Shown here: in pieces, positions 6,355-62,447 of the stretch
Layout: each line of letters begins with the position of its first letter
How positions within the stretch are numbered: position 1 is the first letter of the stretch
Assembly (NCBI GenBank): GCA_900110635.1
Contig: FOEK01000003.1
Location: forward strand, 186,001 to 250,000
DNA from: Lachnospiraceae bacterium NE2001
GTDB taxonomy: Bacteria > Bacillota > Clostridia > Lachnospirales > Lachnospiraceae
Direction: 5' to 3'
DNA length: 64,000 nucleotides
The notes under the pieces: model-generated
Told to the model about the DNA's origin: nothing
Database searches by the model: none
Seen by the model: only the letters and a program-made list of their open reading frames with translations
Made by a program: the position numbers and the translations under genes

Positions 6355-7848
6355 ATGAAGTATATATATCAGTTTGTCGATAAGATAAGGATAAAACTGA
6401 ATAGAAATATTATGAGGAAGTCTGTGGTCTCGGCGCTATTAGTTGGCGTGCTCCTGGGACTTCTTGTTGTGACCATCAGCCTCTTCGTACCTATTTACGA
6501 AAAGGTCGTGCTAATTGCGGCCATTATCCCACCGGTTCTCTCAGTTCCAGTGGGTATTTTTATGGGAATCAGAAAGCGCGTGGATGACAAGGCGGCGGCC
6601 ATATATATAGACAGCTTCGGATTCAAGGAGAAGATAATAACTGCTCTTGAGAACGAGAAGTATAAAGATCCAGTAATTATAATGCAGCGAAATGATGCTG
6701 AAGCCCATCTTCGTGCTGAGGGCTTCAAGGTAAATGTAAAGTTTGAAATGCCCTGGCTAAAGCTGGGATTATGCTTTCTCGCATTTATTCTGGCTATATT
6801 TTTGTTCCTGCTTCCAACAAATGCCAAGAAGGTGGCGGCTGATAAGCACGAGGCTGTGATGGAGGCAAAGGAAGCTGAGAAGGAAGTTAAGGAAATGCTG
6901 GAGGCACTGGAGGCCATTGATCAGAGTGAACTCACAGAGGCGGAACTGGCAGAACTGCAGCAAATGATGGATTCGCTGGAAATGTCACAGCAGGAGTTTA
7001 AGCAGGCATCCTCTATGGAAGATTTTGAGAAGGCCAAGGACAAGTATGACTACAAGCTTGGAGAGGCTTCTGAAAAACTTAATTCCCTTGCGAATGGAAA
7101 GTCTGAAGGTGTTCAGAAGCAGATGAAGTCGGCTCAGGAGATTGCTGATAATCAGAATGAATCGCAGAAACAGGTTGCTTCAAATCAGCAGGGCCAGAAT
7201 GGTGAAAATGGTCAGAGCGGGCAGCAGGGCCAGCCTGGAGAGAACGGTGAAAATGGCGAGCAGGGTCAGTCTGGAGAGAACGGTGAAAATGGCGAGCAGG
7301 GTCAGTCTGGAGAGAACGGTGAAAATGGCGAGCAGGGTCAGTCTGGAGAGAACGGTGAAAATGGCGAGCAAGGCCAGTCTGGTGAGAACGGTGAAAATGG
7401 CGAGCAGGGCCAGTCTGGTGAGGGTGAAGGCCAGTCCGGCGAAGGCGAAGGTCAGTCTGGCGAGGGCGAAGGTCAGTCTGGCGGAGAAGGTTCAGGCCAG
7501 TCTGGCGAAGGCGAAGGTCAGTCTGGCGGTGAAGGCCAGTCTGGTCAGGAGAGTTCAGGCGGTGGCGGTTCAGGTCAGGGCCAGGGCGGAAATAGCAGTA
7601 TGTCATCAATGGAACATAATCACGATTATGTAAGTGTGAATGAGAATATATCCGGTGAATACAGCGACAATACTACGTCCCAGTATTCACACGAACAGAA
7701 TGGACTTACCTGGGAAGGAACCCAGGTTCCATATGATACAGTAGTCAACCAGTATAGTGAGCAGGCCTATGATGGCATCGACAAGGGTAAATACCCAGGC
7801 ACCATGTCAGACGTCATCAAGCAGTATTTTTCAGGACTATCTGAATAA
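6355..7848 (+). CDS. Membrane protein with a long Gly/Glu/Gln-rich repeat linker
   Basis: 497 residues. Three membrane helices (about 24-44, 51-71 and 137-155) and an Ala/Glu-rich helical segment (about 165-260) come first. A low-complexity linker follows, built from five GENGENGEQGQS units and several GEGEGQS units, then a folded-looking C-terminus ending IKQYFSGLSE. The segment IYIDSFGFKEKIITALE between helices 2 and 3 resembles the N-terminal part of large membrane proteins found beside MoxR/DUF58/VWA genes (DUF4175-like, a tentative match). The linker would span a layer such as the wall. GGAGAAAT precedes the ATG weakly. It is probably a structural partner in the MoxR-VWA assembly. Confidence 0.75.
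   Translation: MKYIYQFVDKIRIKLNRNIMRKSVVSALLVGVLLGLLVVTISLFVPIYEKVVLIAAIIPPVLSVPVGIFMGIRKRVDDKAAAIYIDSFGFKEKIITALENEKYKDPVIIMQRNDAEAHLRAEGFKVNVKFEMPWLKLGLCFLAFILAIFLFLLPTNAKKVAADKHEAVMEAKEAEKEVKEMLEALEAIDQSELTEAELAELQQMMDSLEMSQQEFKQASSMEDFEKAKDKYDYKLGEASEKLNSLANGKSEGVQKQMKSAQEIADNQNESQKQVASNQQGQNGENGQSGQQGQPGENGENGEQGQSGENGENGEQGQSGENGENGEQGQSGENGENGEQGQSGENGENGEQGQSGEGEGQSGEGEGQSGEGEGQSGGEGSGQSGEGEGQSGGEGQSGQESSGGGGSGQGQGGNSSMSSMEHNHDYVSVNENISGEYSDNTTSQYSHEQNGLTWEGTQVPYDTVVNQYSEQAYDGIDKGKYPGTMSDVIKQYFSGLSE
7237..7542 (+). repeat. Coding tandem repeats, 36 bp and 21 bp units
   Basis: Five near-identical 36-bp units at 7237-7416 encode GENGENGEQGQS. Shorter units of 21, 24 and 18 bp follow, encoding GEGEGQS variants. 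DNA-level identity is high in the 36-bp block, so copy number can change by slippage or recombination without breaking the frame. Confidence 0.9.
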
Positions 7849-7917: not shown

Positions 7918-8841
7918 ATGGATTACAATCAGGCGATAGGTGTGATAAATCAGGTAAGAACTGAGATTCATAAGGAGATAATAGGTCAGGAAAAAACTGT
8001 TGAAAGTCTTCTGATGGCGCTTCTTACAGGTGGAAATGTCCTTTTAGAGGGTATGCCGGGTCTGGGAAAGACAAGGCTCGTGCAGACCATCAGTCACGTG
8101 TTTGAAATGTCATTTAAAAGAATCCAGTTTACCCCAGATCTTATGCCGGCAGATATAACGGGTACTAATATTATGGTGAGAAATGAGCAGGGCAGCAGCT
8201 TTAAGTTTGAGGCAGGCCCAATCTTTGCAAATATAGTTCTTGCCGATGAGATAAACCGTGCAACACCGAAGACACAGTCGGCGCTTCTTGAGGCTATGCA
8301 GGAGCACACGGTGACAGTTGGTGATGTAACCTATGCACTACCGGATCCATTTTTTGTTATAGCTACACAAAACCCCATTGAGCAGGAGGGAACTTATCCG
8401 CTTCCAGAAGCTCAGTTGGACCGATTTGCGATGAAGCTTCTGGTGGAGTATCCGACAAAGCAGGAGCTGGCGGCAATCGTCAACCTTACAGAGGGCTTTG
8501 GGGTACAGCCTGCACAGCCAGTGATCACGCCTCAGTCTCTGATTGAGATAAGACAAATGATACAGCAGATTCCAATTGCGGAGCCGGTTATGGACCGGGC
8601 TCTCACTCTGGTTATGAATACACACGCAGAGAACAAATATATCCGTGAGGGGGCCAGCCCACGTGCTGCTCAGTATATCGTTCGCTGTGCCAAGGCAAGA
8701 AGCTTTATGATGGGACGTCTGAATGTTGCCTTTGAGGATATAGATTACGTAGCACCAGCAGTACTCCGTCACCGAATCATAACCAGCTTCGACGCAGTAG
8801 CCGACGGAATCACCCCAGACCAGATCATCGCCCAGCTATAA
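7918..8841 (+). CDS. MoxR-family AAA+ ATPase
   Basis: 307 residues. Walker A GMPGLGKTR at about 45-53, Walker B ADEINRATPKTQSALLEAMQE at about 107, sensor 1 ATQNPIEQEGTYPLPEAQLDRF and the C-terminal lid SPRAAQYIVRCAKARSFM are all typical. MoxR ATPases act as chaperone-like factors for VWA-domain proteins, and the gene sits directly before a DUF58 gene and a VWA gene as usual. GGAGG at 7903-7907 precedes the ATG. Confidence 0.95.
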   Translation: MDYNQAIGVINQVRTEIHKEIIGQEKTVESLLMALLTGGNVLLEGMPGLGKTRLVQTISHVFEMSFKRIQFTPDLMPADITGTNIMVRNEQGSSFKFEAGPIFANIVLADEINRATPKTQSALLEAMQEHTVTVGDVTYALPDPFFVIATQNPIEQEGTYPLPEAQLDRFAMKLLVEYPTKQELAAIVNLTEGFGVQPAQPVITPQSLIEIRQMIQQIPIAEPVMDRALTLVMNTHAENKYIREGASPRAAQYIVRCAKARSFMMGRLNVAFEDIDYVAPAVLRHRIITSFDAVADGITPDQIIAQL

Positions 8842-8896
8842 TGTGCAATGGGGACTGTCCCCATTGCACATAGGTCTGTCCCTTTTTGCACATTTT
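8841..8896 (-). repeat. Family B palindromic repeat (GGGGAC core)
   Basis: Begins at the last base of the moxR stop. A 31-base near-perfect hairpin (8841-8871) has 15-bp arms ATGTGCAATGGGGAC and one unpaired base. The companion half AGGTCTGTCCCTTTTTGCACAT follows (opposite orientation to the copies at 24578, 38717 and 61931). It separates moxR from DUF58 but leaves the DUF58 ribosome site intact. Confidence 0.85.
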
Positions 8897-8908
8897 GAGG
8901 AAATTGAT

Positions 8909-9790: not shown

Positions 9791-9846
9791 AAGACAGAGA
9801 ACCGTCCCCTGTCTTAAAAAACGGACAGAGAACCGTCCCATGTCTT
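9791..9846 (-). repeat. Two tandem family A palindromic repeats
   Basis: Copies at 9791-9815 and 9823-9846, each AAGACAG / CTGTCTT-type arms around GAGAACCGTCCC (reverse complement of GGGACGGTTCTC). They sit between the DUF58 stop and the ribosome site GAGG of the VWA gene. Confidence 0.85.
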
Positions 9847-19977: not shown

Positions 19978-20199
19978 ATGATTACAGTAAATATGCAGGC
20001 AACTGGTGCTAATATAAAGAATATGATGAAGACAAGAAATATAAAGGTAAAGGATGTCCAGGCAGTGTGCGGCTTTGGTACACCACAGGCAATATTTAAA
20101 TGGATGCGTGGCGATACTATGCCTACAATTGACAATATGATCATTATAGCCGACATGTTTGGCTGCACCATGGATGATATCGTTGTCGTCAATAAATAA
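19978..20199 (+). CDS. Small XRE-type helix-turn-helix regulator
   Basis: 73 residues. The fold GANIKNMMKTRNIKVKDVQAV, then PQAIFKWMRGDTMPTIDNMIIIADMFGCTMDDIVVV, is a short Cro/C1-type HTH of a kind common in Lachnospiraceae. The frame is open upstream to a TTG at 19750, but that part contains two terminator-like hairpins. The ATG at 19978 with GGAAAGGAAG upstream starts exactly where the domain begins, so I choose it. The promoter and two attenuator-like hairpins suggest expression is controlled by read-through. Confidence 0.75.
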   Translation: MITVNMQATGANIKNMMKTRNIKVKDVQAVCGFGTPQAIFKWMRGDTMPTIDNMIIIADMFGCTMDDIVVVNK

Positions 20200-20200
20200 T

Positions 20201-20229
20201 GTTGTCACGGGGACGTAACAGCTGACAAC
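20201..20229 (+). repeat. Family C palindrome, complete copy
   Basis: Arms GTTGTCA and TGACAAC enclose CGGGGACGTAACAGC. It lies directly after the HTH gene stop and could work as a weak transcript end. Confidence 0.8.
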
Positions 20230-20293
20230 ATTCTGGCAATTTTTCGTGATGTATATTATGATGTGGATACTGTATATTCGTAAAGGGTGAGAG

Positions 20294-24577: not shown

Positions 24578-24632
24578 CAAGGTGCAGAGAGGGACAGACC
24601 TAGGTGCAGCGGGGACGGACCCCACTGCACAT
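24578..24632 (+). repeat. Family B palindromic repeat
   Basis: Starts at the base after the ATPase stop. The hairpin arms are GTGCAGCGGGG and CCCCACTGCAC. Compared with the copy at 8841, the A-T pair next to GTGC has become G-C on both sides, a compensatory change that supports a selected hairpin. The permease ribosome site AGGGGAG lies just downstream. Confidence 0.8.
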
Positions 24633-24651
24633 TTAAGAGGGGAGAGAAAAA

Positions 24652-28557: not shown

Positions 28558-28639
28558 AAGACAGGGGACGGTTCTCTGTCTTTATTTATCACATATAAAA
28601 TGATATTAGCGTCCAAGACAGAGAACCGTCCCCTGTCTT
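28558..28639. repeat. Two inverted family A repeats between murG and pgm
   Basis: Copies at 28558-28582 and 28615-28639 face each other and are complementary over 25 bases. They enclose 32 bases that contain ACATATAAAATGATAT, a string found again at 51001-51016. A transcript through both could form a long hairpin. Confidence 0.85.
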
Positions 28640-38188: not shown

Positions 38189-39103
38189 ATGAAATTAGGC
38201 GAGTGGAATCTTCTTAGAATAGATAGAATAAAGGATGTGGGAGCTTACCTCACAGATGGAAAAGGACTTGGAGAGGATATGGATGTCCTCCTGCCAACGA
38301 GGCAGATTCCTGAAGGGCTTGAGATAGGAGATAATGTTCAGGTCTTCATATACAGAGATTCTGAGGACAGACTGATTGCCACGACTCATATGCCACTTAT
38401 AACTCTTGGTGAGATAAAGCGTCTTAAGGTTAAGTCGGTTGGTGATATTGGCGCTTTTCTTGACTGGGGGCTCAACCGTGATCTGTTTCTCCCATTTAAA
38501 GAGCAGACTGTAAAGGTTCAGCAGGAGAAGTCATATCTTGTGAAGCTTTATGTGGATAAGTCAGGAAGACTTGCTGCTTCCATGAGAATCGCAGATGCAT
38601 TGATACCAGGCACGGATGGTGCTCTAAAAAAGGGCGACCATGTAAAGGGTGTTGTCTACAACGTAAAGAAGGATTTCGGTGTCTTCGTAGCCCTTGAAGA
38701 TCAGATTCTGGATGAAAATGTGCAGAAAGGGACGGACCTATGTGCATTGGGGACAGTCCCCATTGCACATTATAAGTATTCGGGTTTGATTCATAATAGC
38801 GAGGTGTTTGAGAATCTCTATGTTGGAGATGAGGTGACCTGCAGGATTGTAAAGGTCAGAGAGGATGGAAAGATAGATCTTGCTATGAGGGATGAGATTC
38901 CCCAGCAGATGGAAAAGGATGCTGAAATGGTACTGGATATCATAAAGAGTTATGGCGGAAGGCTGCCATTTAATGATAAGGCAGATGCTGCTCTTATAAA
39001 GAAAGAGTTTGGTATCAGCAAAAATGCATTTAAGCGGGCGGTAGGACGTCTGTTTAAACAGAGGCTCATCGTTATTGATGACGATGGTATCTCATTGGTA
39101 TAA
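38189..39103 (+). CDS. cvfB: CvfB-like S1 RNA-binding protein with an in-frame repeat insertion
   Basis: 304 residues. Three S1-type domains ([69 protein letters not shown]) and a C-terminal winged helix ([26 protein letters not shown]) match the CvfB/YitL family of RNA-binding virulence and stress regulators. About 22 residues, [18 protein letters not shown] and VPIAHY, interrupt the third S1 domain between FVALED and [12 protein letters not shown]. Their DNA is a family B repeat. The rest of the frame is intact, so a full-length protein with an extra loop is predicted. ATG 38189 follows AAGGA; an upstream in-frame start at 38111 has no ribosome site and lies in the promoter. Confidence 0.88.
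38717..38771 (+). repeat. Family B palindromic repeat inside cvfB
   Basis: AATGTGCAGAAAGGGACGGA, CCT and the hairpin ATGTGCATTGGGGAC / GTCCCCATTGCACAT (one mismatch, one-base loop). It has the same order and orientation as the intergenic copies at 24578 and 61931, but here it is translated in frame. Confidence 0.9.
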
Positions 39104-47978: not shown

Positions 47979-48007
47979 GTTGTCAGTAGTTACGTCCACG
48001 TGACAAC
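47979..48007 (-). repeat. Family C palindrome serving as 3' end of the M23 gene
   Basis: On the minus strand GTTGTCACGTGGACG onward to TGACAAC, flanked by AAAA and TTTTT. It starts directly after the peptidase stop codon and looks like a working terminator. Confidence 0.8.
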
Positions 48008-48009
48008 TT

Positions 48010-49482
48010 TTAGAGGTAGCCCATTGGGTCTACGTAGGAGCCGTATAGTCTTACGGCGAAATGTAGGTGTGGACCGGTTGAAACTCCGGTACTACCTGCG
48101 AAAGCTATGGTCTGGCCGGCTGTTACATTTGCGCCTTCGCTTACGTTGAAGCCTGACAGATGGAAGTAGCAGGTTGAGATACCATTTCCGTGATCTATGA
48201 TTACTGCATTTCCAGCTGCACTAAGGTAGCCAACGTAGGATACAACGCCATCTGCGGCTGCTACGATTGAAGCTCCAGATGAGCATCCGATATCTATACC
48301 CATATGGTTATAGGTTGCACCCTCGGTTGGAGCCTCTCTGGCACCAAAGCTTGAAGTGATGTATGTTGATGACGGGCAAGGCCACGTGAAACCACCGCCT
48401 GAATATGAGTTCATCGTTGGTGTTGTATTTGTAGTAGTATTTGTGGTAGCAGTTGTGTTTGTAGTAGTTGTCGTTGTAGTAGAAGAAGCATCGGTAGAAG
48501 ATGCTGTACTCGCCTTCTTAGCTTCCTCTTCGGCAGCCTTTCTGGCAGCTTCCTCGGCTTCAGCCTTAGCGGCAGCTTCTTCAGCGGCAGCAGTAGCAGC
48601 GGCTGACTCGGCAGCGGCACGTTTAGCGGCAGCAGCAGCTTCGATTGCTGCAATAGCTGAATCCTGCTCAGCCTCAAGTCGTGTCATTTCTTCGATAGTG
48701 TATTCTGTATCAGCTATCTGGATGTTGTACTCCTGGAGGGTAGCCTGTTTTCCTTCCTGCATTACCTGAAGCGCCTGCTGTTCCCCCTCAGCCTCGGTCT
48801 TAAGTCCTTCTATCTCTTCCAGATTGCTGTTTATTTCATTTTGATAAGTGACAATGGTCTGTTCTATAACCATCAGGTCGTTCAGCTGCTTCTGATCATA
48901 GGCTGAAACCTGTGATACATATTCAGACTGGCTGATAACGCTGTTGTATTCCTTTACTGAAATGAGAGCGTCTATGTAATCTGCATCGCCATTTTCATAA
49001 GCAAACTGGATTCGCTCCTTCATGCTCTCATATTGATTGGTCTCAGCAATATATGCGAGCTGCAGATTATCTTCAGAGATACAAGACTTTATCTGCAAGA
49101 GATTTCGACTGTCCTCCAGTTCGGCCAGCTTTTCCTCGTAGCCAGATATTTCTGAGTCCAGCTCTTCGATAAGCTCCATGATGTCTTCCTTGTCGGATTC
49201 AAGCTTTGACAGCTTGGCTTCGGCTTCTTTCTTCTTCTGGGCAGCATCAGTCTTTTTTGTCTGTGCTGTGGTAAGATCATCAGAACTTTCGGTGGAAGTG
49301 CTGGCTGTGTTCTCGTCGGCATAAACGGCTGAAATACCATTTGAACTAATCTTAGGCACGCCATAAACAGAAGCTACAACCATAGCTCCTGTCAGTACTG
49401 CGCTCATAAGTCTTCTGTTTTTAATACGCTTTGAAAACACCAGACCTTTGTATCCTTTAATTTTTTTGGAAAATAAAAACAT
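48010..49482 (-). CDS. Secreted M23 peptidoglycan endopeptidase with coiled coil (EnvC-like)
   Basis: 490 residues. Signal segment RRLMSAVLTGAMVVASVYG (about 26-44), then a long coiled coil (about 70-290), an Ala/Glu/Lys-rich helix and a Thr/Ser/Asn linker of about 35 residues. The C-terminal M23 domain has the zinc motif NHMGIDIGC (about 394) and HLHF (about 470). It should cut peptide cross-links in the wall. The ATG at 49482 lies inside an inverted repeat and has no Shine-Dalgarno; a GTG at 49440 with AAAGG close upstream is an alternative start that gives a cleaner signal peptide. Confidence 0.88.
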   Translation of the reverse strand: MFLFSKKIKGYKGLVFSKRIKNRRLMSAVLTGAMVVASVYGVPKISSNGISAVYADENTASTSTESSDDLTTAQTKKTDAAQKKKEAEAKLSKLESDKEDIMELIEELDSEISGYEEKLAELEDSRNLLQIKSCISEDNLQLAYIAETNQYESMKERIQFAYENGDADYIDALISVKEYNSVISQSEYVSQVSAYDQKQLNDLMVIEQTIVTYQNEINSNLEEIEGLKTEAEGEQQALQVMQEGKQATLQEYNIQIADTEYTIEEMTRLEAEQDSAIAAIEAAAAAKRAAAESAAATAAAEEAAAKAEAEEAARKAAEEEAKKASTASSTDASSTTTTTTTNTTATTNTTTNTTPTMNSYSGGGFTWPCPSSTYITSSFGAREAPTEGATYNHMGIDIGCSSGASIVAAADGVVSYVGYLSAAGNAVIIDHGNGISTCYFHLSGFNVSEGANVTAGQTIAFAGSTGVSTGPHLHFAVRLYGSYVDPMGYL

Positions 49483-53231: not shown

Positions 53232-56000
53232 ATGAAGAGTTCATATTATATAAATAGACGTAGAGCCATCGCCACTGCGATGAGCGTTATGATGATAGGT
53301 AGTCTTGCAGCTTGCGGGACAACTGATACTAACGATGATACAGCTAAGCTGACTGATGCAACCAAGACATTAGATTTAAATGGAGTTCAGGCGGCAGATG
53401 ATGAGGAAGAACTGACTGAGGTGATAACTAAATCACTTGGTGTTGGAGCATCTGGTGCTGCTGATGGCGTGGATAAGGAGGAAACGGTTTATCTGATCTC
53501 TGATGCTTCTGGAAAGGTTCAGGACACAATCGTTGATGAGTGGCTGAAGAATCCTGAGGGAAAGGATGAACTGAAAGATGTATCCAGGTTAAATGATATC
53601 GAAAACGTAAAGGGAGACGAGACATTTGACCAGAATAGCACCAAGCTTACATGGCAGGCAGGCGGCTCGGATATCTATTATCAGGGACGTACTGATGAGG
53701 AGGCCCCAGTTGCAGTTAAGGTTACCTACTATCTCGATGGAGAAGAGATAAGCCCTGAGGAGCTGGTTGGGAAGTCAGGCCATATAAAGATCAGATATGA
53801 GTATGAGAATAACTCAAAGGATGGGGATGTATATACTCCATTTGTTATGGCTACAGGCATGACGCTTGATATGGGAAGCTTTGCAAATGTAACTGGCACA
53901 AATGCAAAGGTAATATCGGATGGTTCAAGATATATAGTAGTTGGATACGGTATGCCGGGACTTGCTGACAGCCTTGATCTGAGTGGTCTGGATGCACTTG
54001 ATATAGATAGTGCGGAAGTTAAAACAGATAGTTCGAAGGATTCTTCAGCAAAGGCTGAGGATGATAAAGATAATGAGAGTGGTGATGTTCTAGGAAACCT
54101 GGGACTTGAGTTTCCAGAATATTTCGAGGTAGAAGCTGACACCACAGATTTTGAACTTGGCATGACAATCACCGTAGCAAGTGTAGAAACCCTTGGCGAC
54201 GACGATATAGACATTTCAGATGCGGAAGATACGATCAATGACCTGGCTGATCAGTATCAGACAGGAATGAATTCGCTGGTTGATGGTATTGAGGAATATA
54301 CGGACGGTGTTGATCAGGTGGCATCAGGCGTGGATACATTATACTCTGGCAGTGAGACTCTCTACTCAGGTGCAGGAACCCTGAAGAGCGGCATAGAGAG
54401 TGCAGCATCAGGTGCTGACACAATAAAGACCAGCCTTGATACAGCTTACGCAGGCTCACAGGAGCTTGAAAGTGGAGCATCTACCCTTGCGAGTGGAGCA
54501 TCAACTCTGGCAAGTGGAGCATCAACTCTGGCAAGTGGAGCATCTGACCTGGCAGGTGGAGCATCTCAGGTAAATGATGGAGCAAAGGCTGTAAACGATG
54601 GGGCATCAGCTCTTAGCACTGGAGCGTCAAATGCATACGAGGGCGCTAAGCAGGTGAGCGATGGAGCGGCAGAATTAAATGACGCAGTTCAGGCTATTTC
54701 ACTTCCAGATGTTTCCTCTATGGCAGGCACTTCTGTAGATGATGCAACTAAGGCTGCAATAAAGAGTACAGCAGAGGCATCTCTTGGAACAGATACAGCA
54801 TCCTATGTTGGTTCAGCAGTGACAAATGCAGTAAGCGGTTCGGTTAACGCTGATACAGTCAGCCAGGTGGTGGCATATAAGGTAAATGGAGCAGCAGCAG
54901 TTGAGTCTGCAGCTCAGAGTGCAGGAGCAGGACAGGCTGGAAACGCAGCAAGTTATGCTGCTTCAGCAGCAGGTGCAGCAAGCTACACAGGCTCTGCAAA
55001 TGCAGGAGCTCTTGCAGGAGTCAGGGATCAGATGGCAGAAGCCCTTAAGGCTCAGTATGTTGCAGCAGGTTATGATGAGGAGACGGCAGCGGCGCAGGCC
55101 TATGGGGCAGCAGAGGCTATGGTAAATAGCATATACCAGGCGGGCTATGGTGATGGCTATGGTACAGCGTATTGCACAGGTTATGGCGCAGGCTACGCAG
55201 CTGAGTATCAGACTTATCTGACAGAGTTCGATAAGTACATTGGTCAGGTAACAGCAGCATTCCAGGGCGATACATTTGGTGGTGCTATTACAAATGTGGC
55301 AAATGCTTATGCTTCGGCAGGCTCCAAGGTGACACTGGGCAAGGTGGGTGAAACCATGAGCTCATTCTCAACCAAGCTGGATGACCTGAAGGCTGGAACT
55401 CAAAGCCTGGCAGATGGTTCGGCTTCACTTACAACAGGACTTGGAACCCTTAAGACTGGTGCAAGTGATCTGGCAACTGGAACATCAACTCTTTCGAGTG
55501 GAGCATCAGCCCTTTCAGATGGAGCGTCAACCCTTTCAAGTGGAGCATCAACCCTCTCAAGTGGAGCATCGACTCTCTCAAGTGGAGCATCAACCCTCTC
55601 GAGTGGAACCTCCACACTTACAGATGGACTCTCACAGCTGGATACTGGTGCAGGAACTCTTCAGAGTGGTATGAGCGAGCTTAAATCTGGCTCAGCTACA
55701 CTCTACAGCGGAACCGAAACACTTTATAACGGTGTCAGCGAGCTTAAGTCTGGAACCGATACACTTTCAGCTAACAGTTCAGCCCTTAATGATGGTGCCG
55801 GTGAACTTAAAGACGCAACAGATCTTCTGGTTGATAAGCTGGAGGAAACAGAGGATGGTCTCGATAATTTCGTAGACAGCGTCAACTCAGTTAAGGCAGC
55901 AGCTCGTAACTATAAATCCTTCGGTGGCGCTGCATCTGACACAACTACAAGCACCAAGTTTATCATCAAGGTTGGCGGTGTTGAGGAAGCAAATAAATAA
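53232..56000 (+). CDS. Secreted lipoprotein with Leu-x-x-Gly heptad repeats (YhgE/Pip-type)
   Basis: 922 residues. A signal peptide with lipobox SLAAC (Cys about 28) is followed by a beta domain (about 100-330). Two long stretches of heptads of the type xxxLxxGAS (about 365-480 and 720-870) flank an Ala/Gly/Tyr-rich middle (AGYGDGYGTAYCTGYGAGYAAEY). Such heptads occur in YhgE/Pip-like proteins and in partners of MMPL pumps; they probably form long helical stalks. The arrangement suggests an extracytoplasmic partner of the MMPL protein. The ribosome site AAAGGAAG precedes the ATG. Confidence 0.85.
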   Translation: MKSSYYINRRRAIATAMSVMMIGSLAACGTTDTNDDTAKLTDATKTLDLNGVQAADDEEELTEVITKSLGVGASGAADGVDKEETVYLISDASGKVQDTIVDEWLKNPEGKDELKDVSRLNDIENVKGDETFDQNSTKLTWQAGGSDIYYQGRTDEEAPVAVKVTYYLDGEEISPEELVGKSGHIKIRYEYENNSKDGDVYTPFVMATGMTLDMGSFANVTGTNAKVISDGSRYIVVGYGMPGLADSLDLSGLDALDIDSAEVKTDSSKDSSAKAEDDKDNESGDVLGNLGLEFPEYFEVEADTTDFELGMTITVASVETLGDDDIDISDAEDTINDLADQYQTGMNSLVDGIEEYTDGVDQVASGVDTLYSGSETLYSGAGTLKSGIESAASGADTIKTSLDTAYAGSQELESGASTLASGASTLASGASTLASGASDLAGGASQVNDGAKAVNDGASALSTGASNAYEGAKQVSDGAAELNDAVQAISLPDVSSMAGTSVDDATKAAIKSTAEASLGTDTASYVGSAVTNAVSGSVNADTVSQVVAYKVNGAAAVESAAQSAGAGQAGNAASYAASAAGAASYTGSANAGALAGVRDQMAEALKAQYVAAGYDEETAAAQAYGAAEAMVNSIYQAGYGDGYGTAYCTGYGAGYAAEYQTYLTEFDKYIGQVTAAFQGDTFGGAITNVANAYASAGSKVTLGKVGETMSSFSTKLDDLKAGTQSLADGSASLTTGLGTLKTGASDLATGTSTLSSGASALSDGASTLSSGASTLSSGASTLSSGASTLSSGTSTLTDGLSQLDTGAGTLQSGMSELKSGSATLYSGTETLYNGVSELKSGTDTLSANSSALNDGAGELKDATDLLVDKLEETEDGLDNFVDSVNSVKAAARNYKSFGGAASDTTTSTKFIIKVGGVEEANK
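54471..54554 (+). repeat. 21-bp coding tandem repeat, block 1
   Basis: Four units beginning AGTGGAGCATC encode the heptad SGASTLA. Units 2 and 3 are identical at the DNA level. Confidence 0.85.
55494..55619 (+). repeat. 21-bp coding tandem repeat, block 2
   Basis: Six units of the type TCAAGTGGAGCATCAACC encode SSGASTL heptads with only a few substitutions, so this block is likely to vary in length. Confidence 0.85.
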
Positions 56001-60874: not shown

Positions 60875-60881
60875 TAGAAAA

Positions 60882-60903
60882 GTTGTCACGGGGAAGTGAC
60901 AAC
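60882..60903 (+). repeat. Family C-like palindrome, short form
   Basis: GTTGTCAC-GGGGAA-GTGACAAC followed by TTT, directly after the deacetylase stop. A probable terminator. Confidence 0.75.
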
Positions 60904-60936
60904 TTTCTGCAAATAATATGTCAGGGGGTTACAAGA

Positions 60937-61457: not shown

Positions 61458-61886
61458 ATGAAAGATACATTTGAAAGCTTCAGTAGAGAAGATACATTTG
61501 AATATGCAAAAAAGCTTGGTGAAAAGGCAAAGTCTGGTGAGGTGTATTGTCTGAGCGGTGACCTTGGCGTTGGCAAGACTGTATTCGCTCAGGGCTTTGG
61601 GGCGGGGCTTGGTATTAGTGAACCTATGTCGAGTCCAACATTTACCATACTTCAGGAATATACTGAAGGCCGACTTCCGCTATATCACTATGATGTATAT
61701 CGTGTTGGTGATGTGGATGAAATGGAAGAAACGGGCTTCTATGAATATGTGGGTGGCGATGGAGTAGCCTTAATAGAATGGGCGGAACTGATCGATGAAA
61801 TCATTCCAAAGAATGCAATCCATATCCTGATTGAAAAGGATGTGGAAAAGGGCTTCGATTACCGAACCATTACAAAAACATTTTAA
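61458..61886 (+). CDS. tsaE: tRNA threonylcarbamoyladenosine biosynthesis ATPase
   Basis: 142 residues. Walker A GDLGVGKTVFAQGF, SPTFTILQEY, YHYDVYR and VALIEWAE are the TsaE hallmarks. It supports TsaB/TsaD in making t6A37 in ANN-decoding tRNAs. First of the canonical tsaE-rimI-tsaB order. AAGGAATT precedes the ATG. Confidence 0.95.
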   Translation: MKDTFESFSREDTFEYAKKLGEKAKSGEVYCLSGDLGVGKTVFAQGFGAGLGISEPMSSPTFTILQEYTEGRLPLYHYDVYRVGDVDEMEETGFYEYVGGDGVALIEWAELIDEIIPKNAIHILIEKDVEKGFDYRTITKTF

Positions 61887-61910
61887 AGACAGGGGATAAT
61901 TCTCTGTCTT
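61886..61910 (+). repeat. Family A repeat, diverged copy
   Basis: AAGACAGGGGATAATTCTCT and GTCTT: same arms, core changed from GGGGACGGTTCTC to GGGGATAATTCTC. Begins on the last base of the tsaE stop. Confidence 0.8.
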
Positions 61911-61930: not shown

Positions 61931-61984
61931 AATGTGCAAAAGGGACAGACCTATGTGTGAGTGGGGACAGACCCCATTGCACAT
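61931..61984 (+). repeat. Family B repeat before rimI
   Basis: AATGTGCAAAAGGGACAGAC, CT, then ATGTGTGAGTGGGGACAGA, CCCCATTGCACAT. The left hairpin arm has diverged. It ends 14 bases before the rimI ATG. Confidence 0.8.
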
Positions 61985-62415: not shown

Positions 62416-62429
62416 TATTTATGATACAA

Positions 62430-62447
62430 AATGTGCAAAAAGGGACA
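62430..62447 (+). repeat. Half of a family B repeat
   Basis: AATGTGCAAAAAGGGACA, the left part of the family B element without its hairpin, just before the tsaB ribosome site. Confidence 0.65.

Follow-up and report, generated by a model that had tools for sequence, protein, structure and literature searches.

How does a dispersed palindromic repeat come to be read as protein inside the RNA-binding protein CvfB, and is it there as a recent, tolerated insertion or as a domesticated loop? The locus lies in a 64,000-nt stretch of the genome of Lachnospiraceae bacterium NE2001, a gut bacterium; this stretch is the window. The initial annotation placed the same element at 38717, where it would be translated within the third S1 domain, and at the intergenic positions 8841 (reverse), 24578 and 61931. 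All four are real copies, located as follows.

38189..39103, plus strand: the cvfB ORF, 304 aa, with S1 domains and a C-terminal winged helix (Pfam, PDB 3go5).
38636..38884, plus strand: third S1 domain, about residues 150-232 (strands in the AlphaFold2 model).
38715..38774, plus strand: REP-like element copy read in frame in cvfB, about residues 176-195 (95% complementary to 8837-8896 over 60 nt; 51/54 positions as in the consensus of the window genome).
38740..38770, plus strand: the 31-nt palindrome of the element (family D11; predicted RNA hairpin, z-score -3.68).
8837..8896, minus strand: element copy between two ORFs, the first of which we take to be a MoxR-type ATPase (repeat search, pattern, ORF context).
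24579..24645, plus strand: element copy between two ORFs that are presumably ABC-transporter genes (repeat search, pattern, ORF context).
61938..61984, plus strand: more diverged element copy between ORFs that we assume to be TsaE-like and RimI-like (repeat search, ORF context).
62427..62447, plus strand: fragment of the element arm (21/21 nt complementary to 8877-8897).

The cvfB frame is open through the repeat as a single 304-residue ORF (38189-39103), and codon usage of coding type runs on in one frame on both sides of it. The protein has the S1 domains and the winged helix of the CvfB family, with Pfam scores of 113.9 (PF13509), 78.5 (PF17783), 39.1 (PF00575) and 29.1 bits (PF21543), all above the cut-offs. 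The best solved fold, matched by both sequence and fold, was PDB 3go5 (E 1.7e-22), the CvfB of Streptococcus pneumoniae, which likewise has S1-type domains and a winged helix. In the AlphaFold2 model, the strands of the third S1 domain span residues 151-160, 164-173, 195-202, 215-223 and 229-232. The repeat is located in the β2-β3 loop, with 24 residues from FVALED to KYSG. Residues 177-190, between strands 164-173 and 195-202, have a pLDDT below 50, and the repeat-bearing loop is predicted to be disordered. The frame is open, and the Pfam matches, 3go5 and the model support placing the repeat in this domain. The window genome assembly consists of 62 contigs, several of which end at Y1-transposase fragments, and a false join at a dispersed repeat might have produced the locus. 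However, cvfB lies inside a 255-kb contig, the coding codon usage is unbroken in one frame across the repeat, and a sister species, assembled as one contig, also carries a copy of the element at this position. We consider an assembly artefact hardly credible.

The element is about 55-60 bp long and consists of an arm (ATGTGCAAAAAGGGACAGACC) followed by a 31-nt palindrome (ATGTGCAATGGGGACAGTCCCCATTGCACAT). A loose 48-nt pattern allowing up to nine substitutions had three matches in the window (8843, 24583 and 38721) and none in 20 mononucleotide-shuffled windows; the 61938 copy is not captured by this pattern. Across the genome of the window (G000), a 24-nt pattern with up to three mismatches gave 124 matches, 63 forward and 61 reverse, against none for the reversed-pattern control. 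A second pattern gave 114 matches in G000, 62 in the sister species (G005, which we take to be Lachnospiraceae bacterium AC2031) and none in the remaining 59 of the 61 genomes of the genus. Consensus sequences drawn from 73 G000 copies and 30 G005 copies coincide at 42 of 54 positions, and stop-free frames number 5/6 and 6/6, respectively. The hairpin foot reads CCTATGTGCA in G000 and CCTCGGTGCA in the G005 consensus; the canonical REP foot GT[AG]G is absent from both. The 8837 copy, otherwise intergenic, overlaps the final bases of the preceding ORF. GTG starts inside the element are possible for mechanical ORFs of downstream genes (window 8843 and 61957), and some copies may lengthen the N-termini of downstream proteins.

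The window contains other repeats as well. A second dispersed palindrome family (AAGACAGGGGACGGTTCTCTGTCTT type) is found at 9791-9815, 28558-28582, 28615-28639 and 61886-61910, the last directly preceding an element of the first family. A third dispersed family (GTTGTCACGGGGACGTAACA type) is found at 315-350, 20196-20231 and 60877-60912, and inverted at 47985-48011. Tandem repeats that look coding are present at 7151-7438 (period about 36 nt) and 54444-55673 (period about 21 nt).

Is CvfB the only protein that holds the element? Sites were read with their flanks at 107 places in G000 and 59 in G005, among the listed parts of 124 and 62 matches, many of them tandem pairs; this census is near complete but not complete. 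In-gene sites were called by a codon-usage scan together with homology, and as the scan can miss cases, the counts are lower bounds: at least 4 of 107 in G000 (cvfB, priA, tsaD and dusB) and at least 3 of 59 in G005 (cvfB, priA and a response regulator). For the G000 dusB copy and the G005 response-regulator copy, the codon score on the left side was near zero, and both were called from homology. Orthologues revealed one extra in-gene copy per genome: tsaD of G005 holds a 27-nt palindrome, and the response-regulator gene of G000 a diverged copy. Each aligns to the element better than 2000/2000 shuffles. The element is thus present in five proteins, CvfB, PriA, TsaD, a PhoB/OmpR-type response regulator and DusB, and the frame is kept in all nine in-gene copies of the two genomes. 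The reading of CvfB as the sole case was rejected. Of 108 G000 sites, 5 are known to lie in genes; given a coding density of about 0.90 in the window, the probability of so few is ~5e-97. The avoidance of genes that had been claimed for this type of repeat is therefore supported. A short palindrome with 124 matches, of which 4 of the 107 sites read are in genes, is a REP in its size, copy number and chiefly intergenic location.

The link to REPs extends to a transposase gene. The RAYT query had only one match in G000 (G000:C41:113499-114242), and palindromes flank this ORF, about 95 bp upstream and 24 bp downstream (L063, 1337-1363 and 2230-2256 around the ORF at 1459-2205). An orthologue in G005, 96% identical, is similarly flanked by palindromes. 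RAYT homologues occur in 21 of the 61 genus genomes; the 19 outside these two species are at most 57% identical, in genomes without an element match. The G000 protein scored 45.3 bits against PF01797 (Y1_Tnp; cut-off 23) and 52.3 bits against NCBIfam NF047646 (REP_Tyr_transpos; cut-off 80), above the first cut-off and below the second. The element is associated with this putative RAYT. Most G000 copies belong to the CCTATGTGCA subfamily, and those flanking RAYT belong to another, CCTTGGTGCA. By analogy with the REPtron literature (PMC6006769, PMC8266576 and PMC2817692), RAYT would be what moves the element. The flanks of 55 G000 and 23 G005 copies held neither a recognisable target-site duplication, a check proposed in the initial annotation, nor a clear target motif; their columns are merely A-rich, and the idea of a motif or duplication at insertion sites was dropped. 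Five further Y1_Tnp matches in G000 lie at the ends of contigs C40, C54, C47, C22 and C58, and an IS200-like element probably breaks the assembly at these five ends, which carry Y1-type transposase fragments.

REPs that are read in frame inside genes have been reported before, in other bacteria. The main text of PMC3733652 describes REPs of the GTAG and CGTC superfamilies that are in frame within genes of several species, many of them genes of DNA or RNA metabolism. It also reports REPs that occupy roughly one and the same position of recB in two Xanthomonas species. Like the window element, these are short palindromes that are mostly intergenic and sometimes read in frame; unlike them, the window element has no GTAG or CGTC tag and its host belongs to the Lachnospiraceae. 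Neither "Clostridi" nor "Firmicutes" is mentioned in that main text. The sections of PMC6006769 on tnpAREP genes describe in-frame REPs of subclass 2.4 inside these genes and state that flexible linkers or loops can accommodate such insertions. The likeness is in the keeping of the frame, but the host gene of subclass 2.4 REPs is the transposase itself, whereas the window element is in housekeeping genes. Rickettsia palindromic elements, as characterised in PMC10969869, are also palindromic repeats that are in frame in unrelated genes. They differ in being about 150 bp long, with a conserved peptide and nearly half of them in ORFs; the window element measures about 55-60 bp, has about 5 of its 108 G000 sites in genes and encodes peptides that are not conserved. 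Searches of an open-licence library for REPs in Clostridia or Lachnospiraceae and for CvfB gave no report of this element. What is new is the Lachnospiraceae setting.

How much of the CvfB loop is due to the element? CvfB was present in 69 of the 99 relatives searched. In an alignment of 34 sequences, 33 of them drawn from 80 loci, the third S1 domain of the window protein is 24 residues longer (172-195) than that of the short-loop homologue L149. About 20 of these (176-195) are supplied by the DNA element, and QILD is not element-derived. The earlier estimate of about 22 added residues needs a slight correction accordingly. Among 30 loci examined, 2 have the element, 19 have an extended loop without the repeat and 9 have a short loop. 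The nearest repeat-free CvfB (G033, 82% identical) has KPLSNEASEDKEDAGEDISTEKHY at the loop, likewise 24 residues and unrelated to the element peptide. Repeat-free homologues with the same residues had been named as evidence against the initial reading; none was seen, and G033 matches in length only. Judged from these sequences, the extended loop is independent of the repeat, because 19 of 30 loci have it without the repeat and G033 also has 24 residues. The cvfB gene of another relative (G004, L048) has an internal TAA.

The copy in the window cvfB looks recent, because 51 of its 54 positions match the G000 consensus and 52 match the nearest G000 copies; at most 45 match any of the 30 G005 copies. 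Its variant GCATTGGGG is common to only one other copy among 103. This favours the first of the two options in the initial annotation, recent insertion. The second, that the repeat-encoded peptide was recruited in CvfB for RNA binding or protein contact and is held by selection, draws on G005, where the CvfB loop is also element-derived, at the same place and in the same frame; one of the two peptides compared reads EGTDLGAVGTDPIAR. The peptide differs between the two species, however, and the residues track each genome's own DNA subfamily; for this reason, domestication of a conserved peptide was not taken as the leading reading. Relatives have unrelated residues or none at this loop, the loop is predicted to be disordered, and the same element is found in unrelated proteins. 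In-gene sites seem to be shared between the two genomes more than spacers are, which would also speak for retention, but the comparison (below) is a weak test. Domestication is improbable.

Could the element instead be retained in cvfB as an RNA hairpin acting in mRNA stability, pausing or processing, with the peptide as a by-product? A folding energy of -37.2 kcal/mol is predicted for the 111-nt region (z-score -3.68, with 1 of 200 shuffles as stable), and the two element loops reach -28.8 kcal/mol compared to -1.1 to -16.1 for the other extracted CvfB loops. A strong fold is nevertheless expected of any copy of a palindrome, the remaining CvfB genes of the genus manage without it, and the arm and the left junction differ between G000 and G005. 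We regard a retained hairpin as very improbable.

G000 and G005 both carry the element in four of the five proteins, DusB being occupied in G000 only. The initial annotation had missed the four proteins other than CvfB, the occupied G005 site and the repeat-free extended loops. G005 copies in the matching loops are usually of G005's own subfamily, which leaves the peptides unconserved. The CvfB copies of the two species share their right junction and belong to different subfamilies; the PriA copies run in opposite directions and are similar at the left junction and different at the right. Of the 59 G005 sites, 20 could be paired by both flanks with a copy-bearing G000 locus; 3 of these lie in genes and 17 in spacers, the response-regulator locus having been put into this search by hand. 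The difference between genes (3/3) and spacers (17/56) gives p 0.035, with 15 more G005 sites matched by one flank only, at least one of which (L111/L006) is a shared spacer; that in-gene sites are shared oftener is suggestive at most. When five shared spacers were compared, three pairs were mutual nearest neighbours (one tied) and two were not. For the G000 copies on C20, C27 and C28 and their G005 counterparts (L112/L243, L113/L246, L122/L245), some shared spacers hold near-identical copies in both species and others carry each genome's own subfamily. The gene sets found by the scan (4 and 3, with 2 in common) would overlap to this extent by chance at 9e-6, assuming 2000 shared genes, and therefore common ancestry or a strong site preference is needed. 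An overlap figure of 7.5e-12 is biased, as it includes copies found via orthologues. The shared loops may be due to independent hits in both lineages or to an ancestral insertion with later conversion or re-insertion.

Collectively, we think it likely that flexible loops are the only places within genes where RAYT-associated REPs persist, and that they turn over there. The element would be a non-autonomous palindrome of REP type, its spread linked to a REP-associated Y1 (RAYT) transposase. Copies landing in genes would be lost by selection, leaving nearly all remaining copies intergenic. Survivors in genes would be those in a flexible, length-variable protein loop that keep the frame, and the stop-free frames of the consensus (5/6 in G000, 6/6 in G005) would ease such survival. 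In CvfB, the copy would have replaced a repeat-free linker of similar length in the β2-β3 loop, presumably leaving the protein unharmed. The site may have been occupied in the common ancestor of G000 and G005 or hit in each lineage separately, and re-insertion or conversion at shared sites would have made the loop sequence that of each genome's own subfamily. The case offers a clean comparison of selfish DNA turning into protein, resting on a repeat family limited, as far as searched, to two sister species, four proteins in which both species have the corresponding loop occupied, and relatives whose loops lack the repeat. It suggests that loop tolerance, not domestication, decides where insertions survive. 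It is also a warning that loop indels in CvfB, PriA, TsaD, DusB and the response regulator can be repeat-derived.

Loop length also varies among repeat-free relatives in PriA, TsaD and the response regulator. In relatives G049, G012 and G034, the response-regulator genes (L382, L383 and L384) have one TAA each. The DusB loop was found in 27 of 30 loci; among repeat-free species it is clearly long only in G033 and G008, with a shorter extension in G005. A decayed element copy in the G005 dusB loop was rejected, as its alignment score of 8 was reached by 467 of 2000 shuffles.

The PriA loop has taken up more than one kind of repeat. Two species carry the GTGCA element there, oriented oppositely. 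In a third, G059, this loop contains DVILSEAKNL, the product of TGTCATTCTGAGCGAAGCGAAGAATCT, a repeat matched 86 times in that genome. The TGTCATTCTGAGCGAAGCGAAGAATCT repeat is unrelated to the GTGCA element, and therefore at least two repeat families entered this loop. When sites of the G059-type repeat were scanned for location in genes, only one of 32 had a score above zero, the G059 priA copy itself, which had been included deliberately. A broader idea, which we hold only tentatively and think rather unlikely, is that mobile palindromes continually supply essential proteins of the genus with new loop sequence. Unrelated families would invade the same small set of loops without disrupting the frame and later decay or be replaced, and the linkers of CvfB, PriA, TsaD, DusB and the response regulator would partly be fossils of them. 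Among the loops extracted, only G000 and G005 had an 11-mer that recurred between loops of the same genome, in a comparison that left out all response-regulator loops, three of the five dusB loops and two others. Other species' loops gave no sign of repeat origin besides G059 PriA, and because this alone pointed to a repeat outside G000 and G005, the fossil idea is unproven. The PriA loop lies just before Walker A (GVTGSGKT; L248/L247, L251), and three species have in-frame repeats there, from two unrelated families. This recurrence of unrelated repeats in one loop is the most interesting part of the system.
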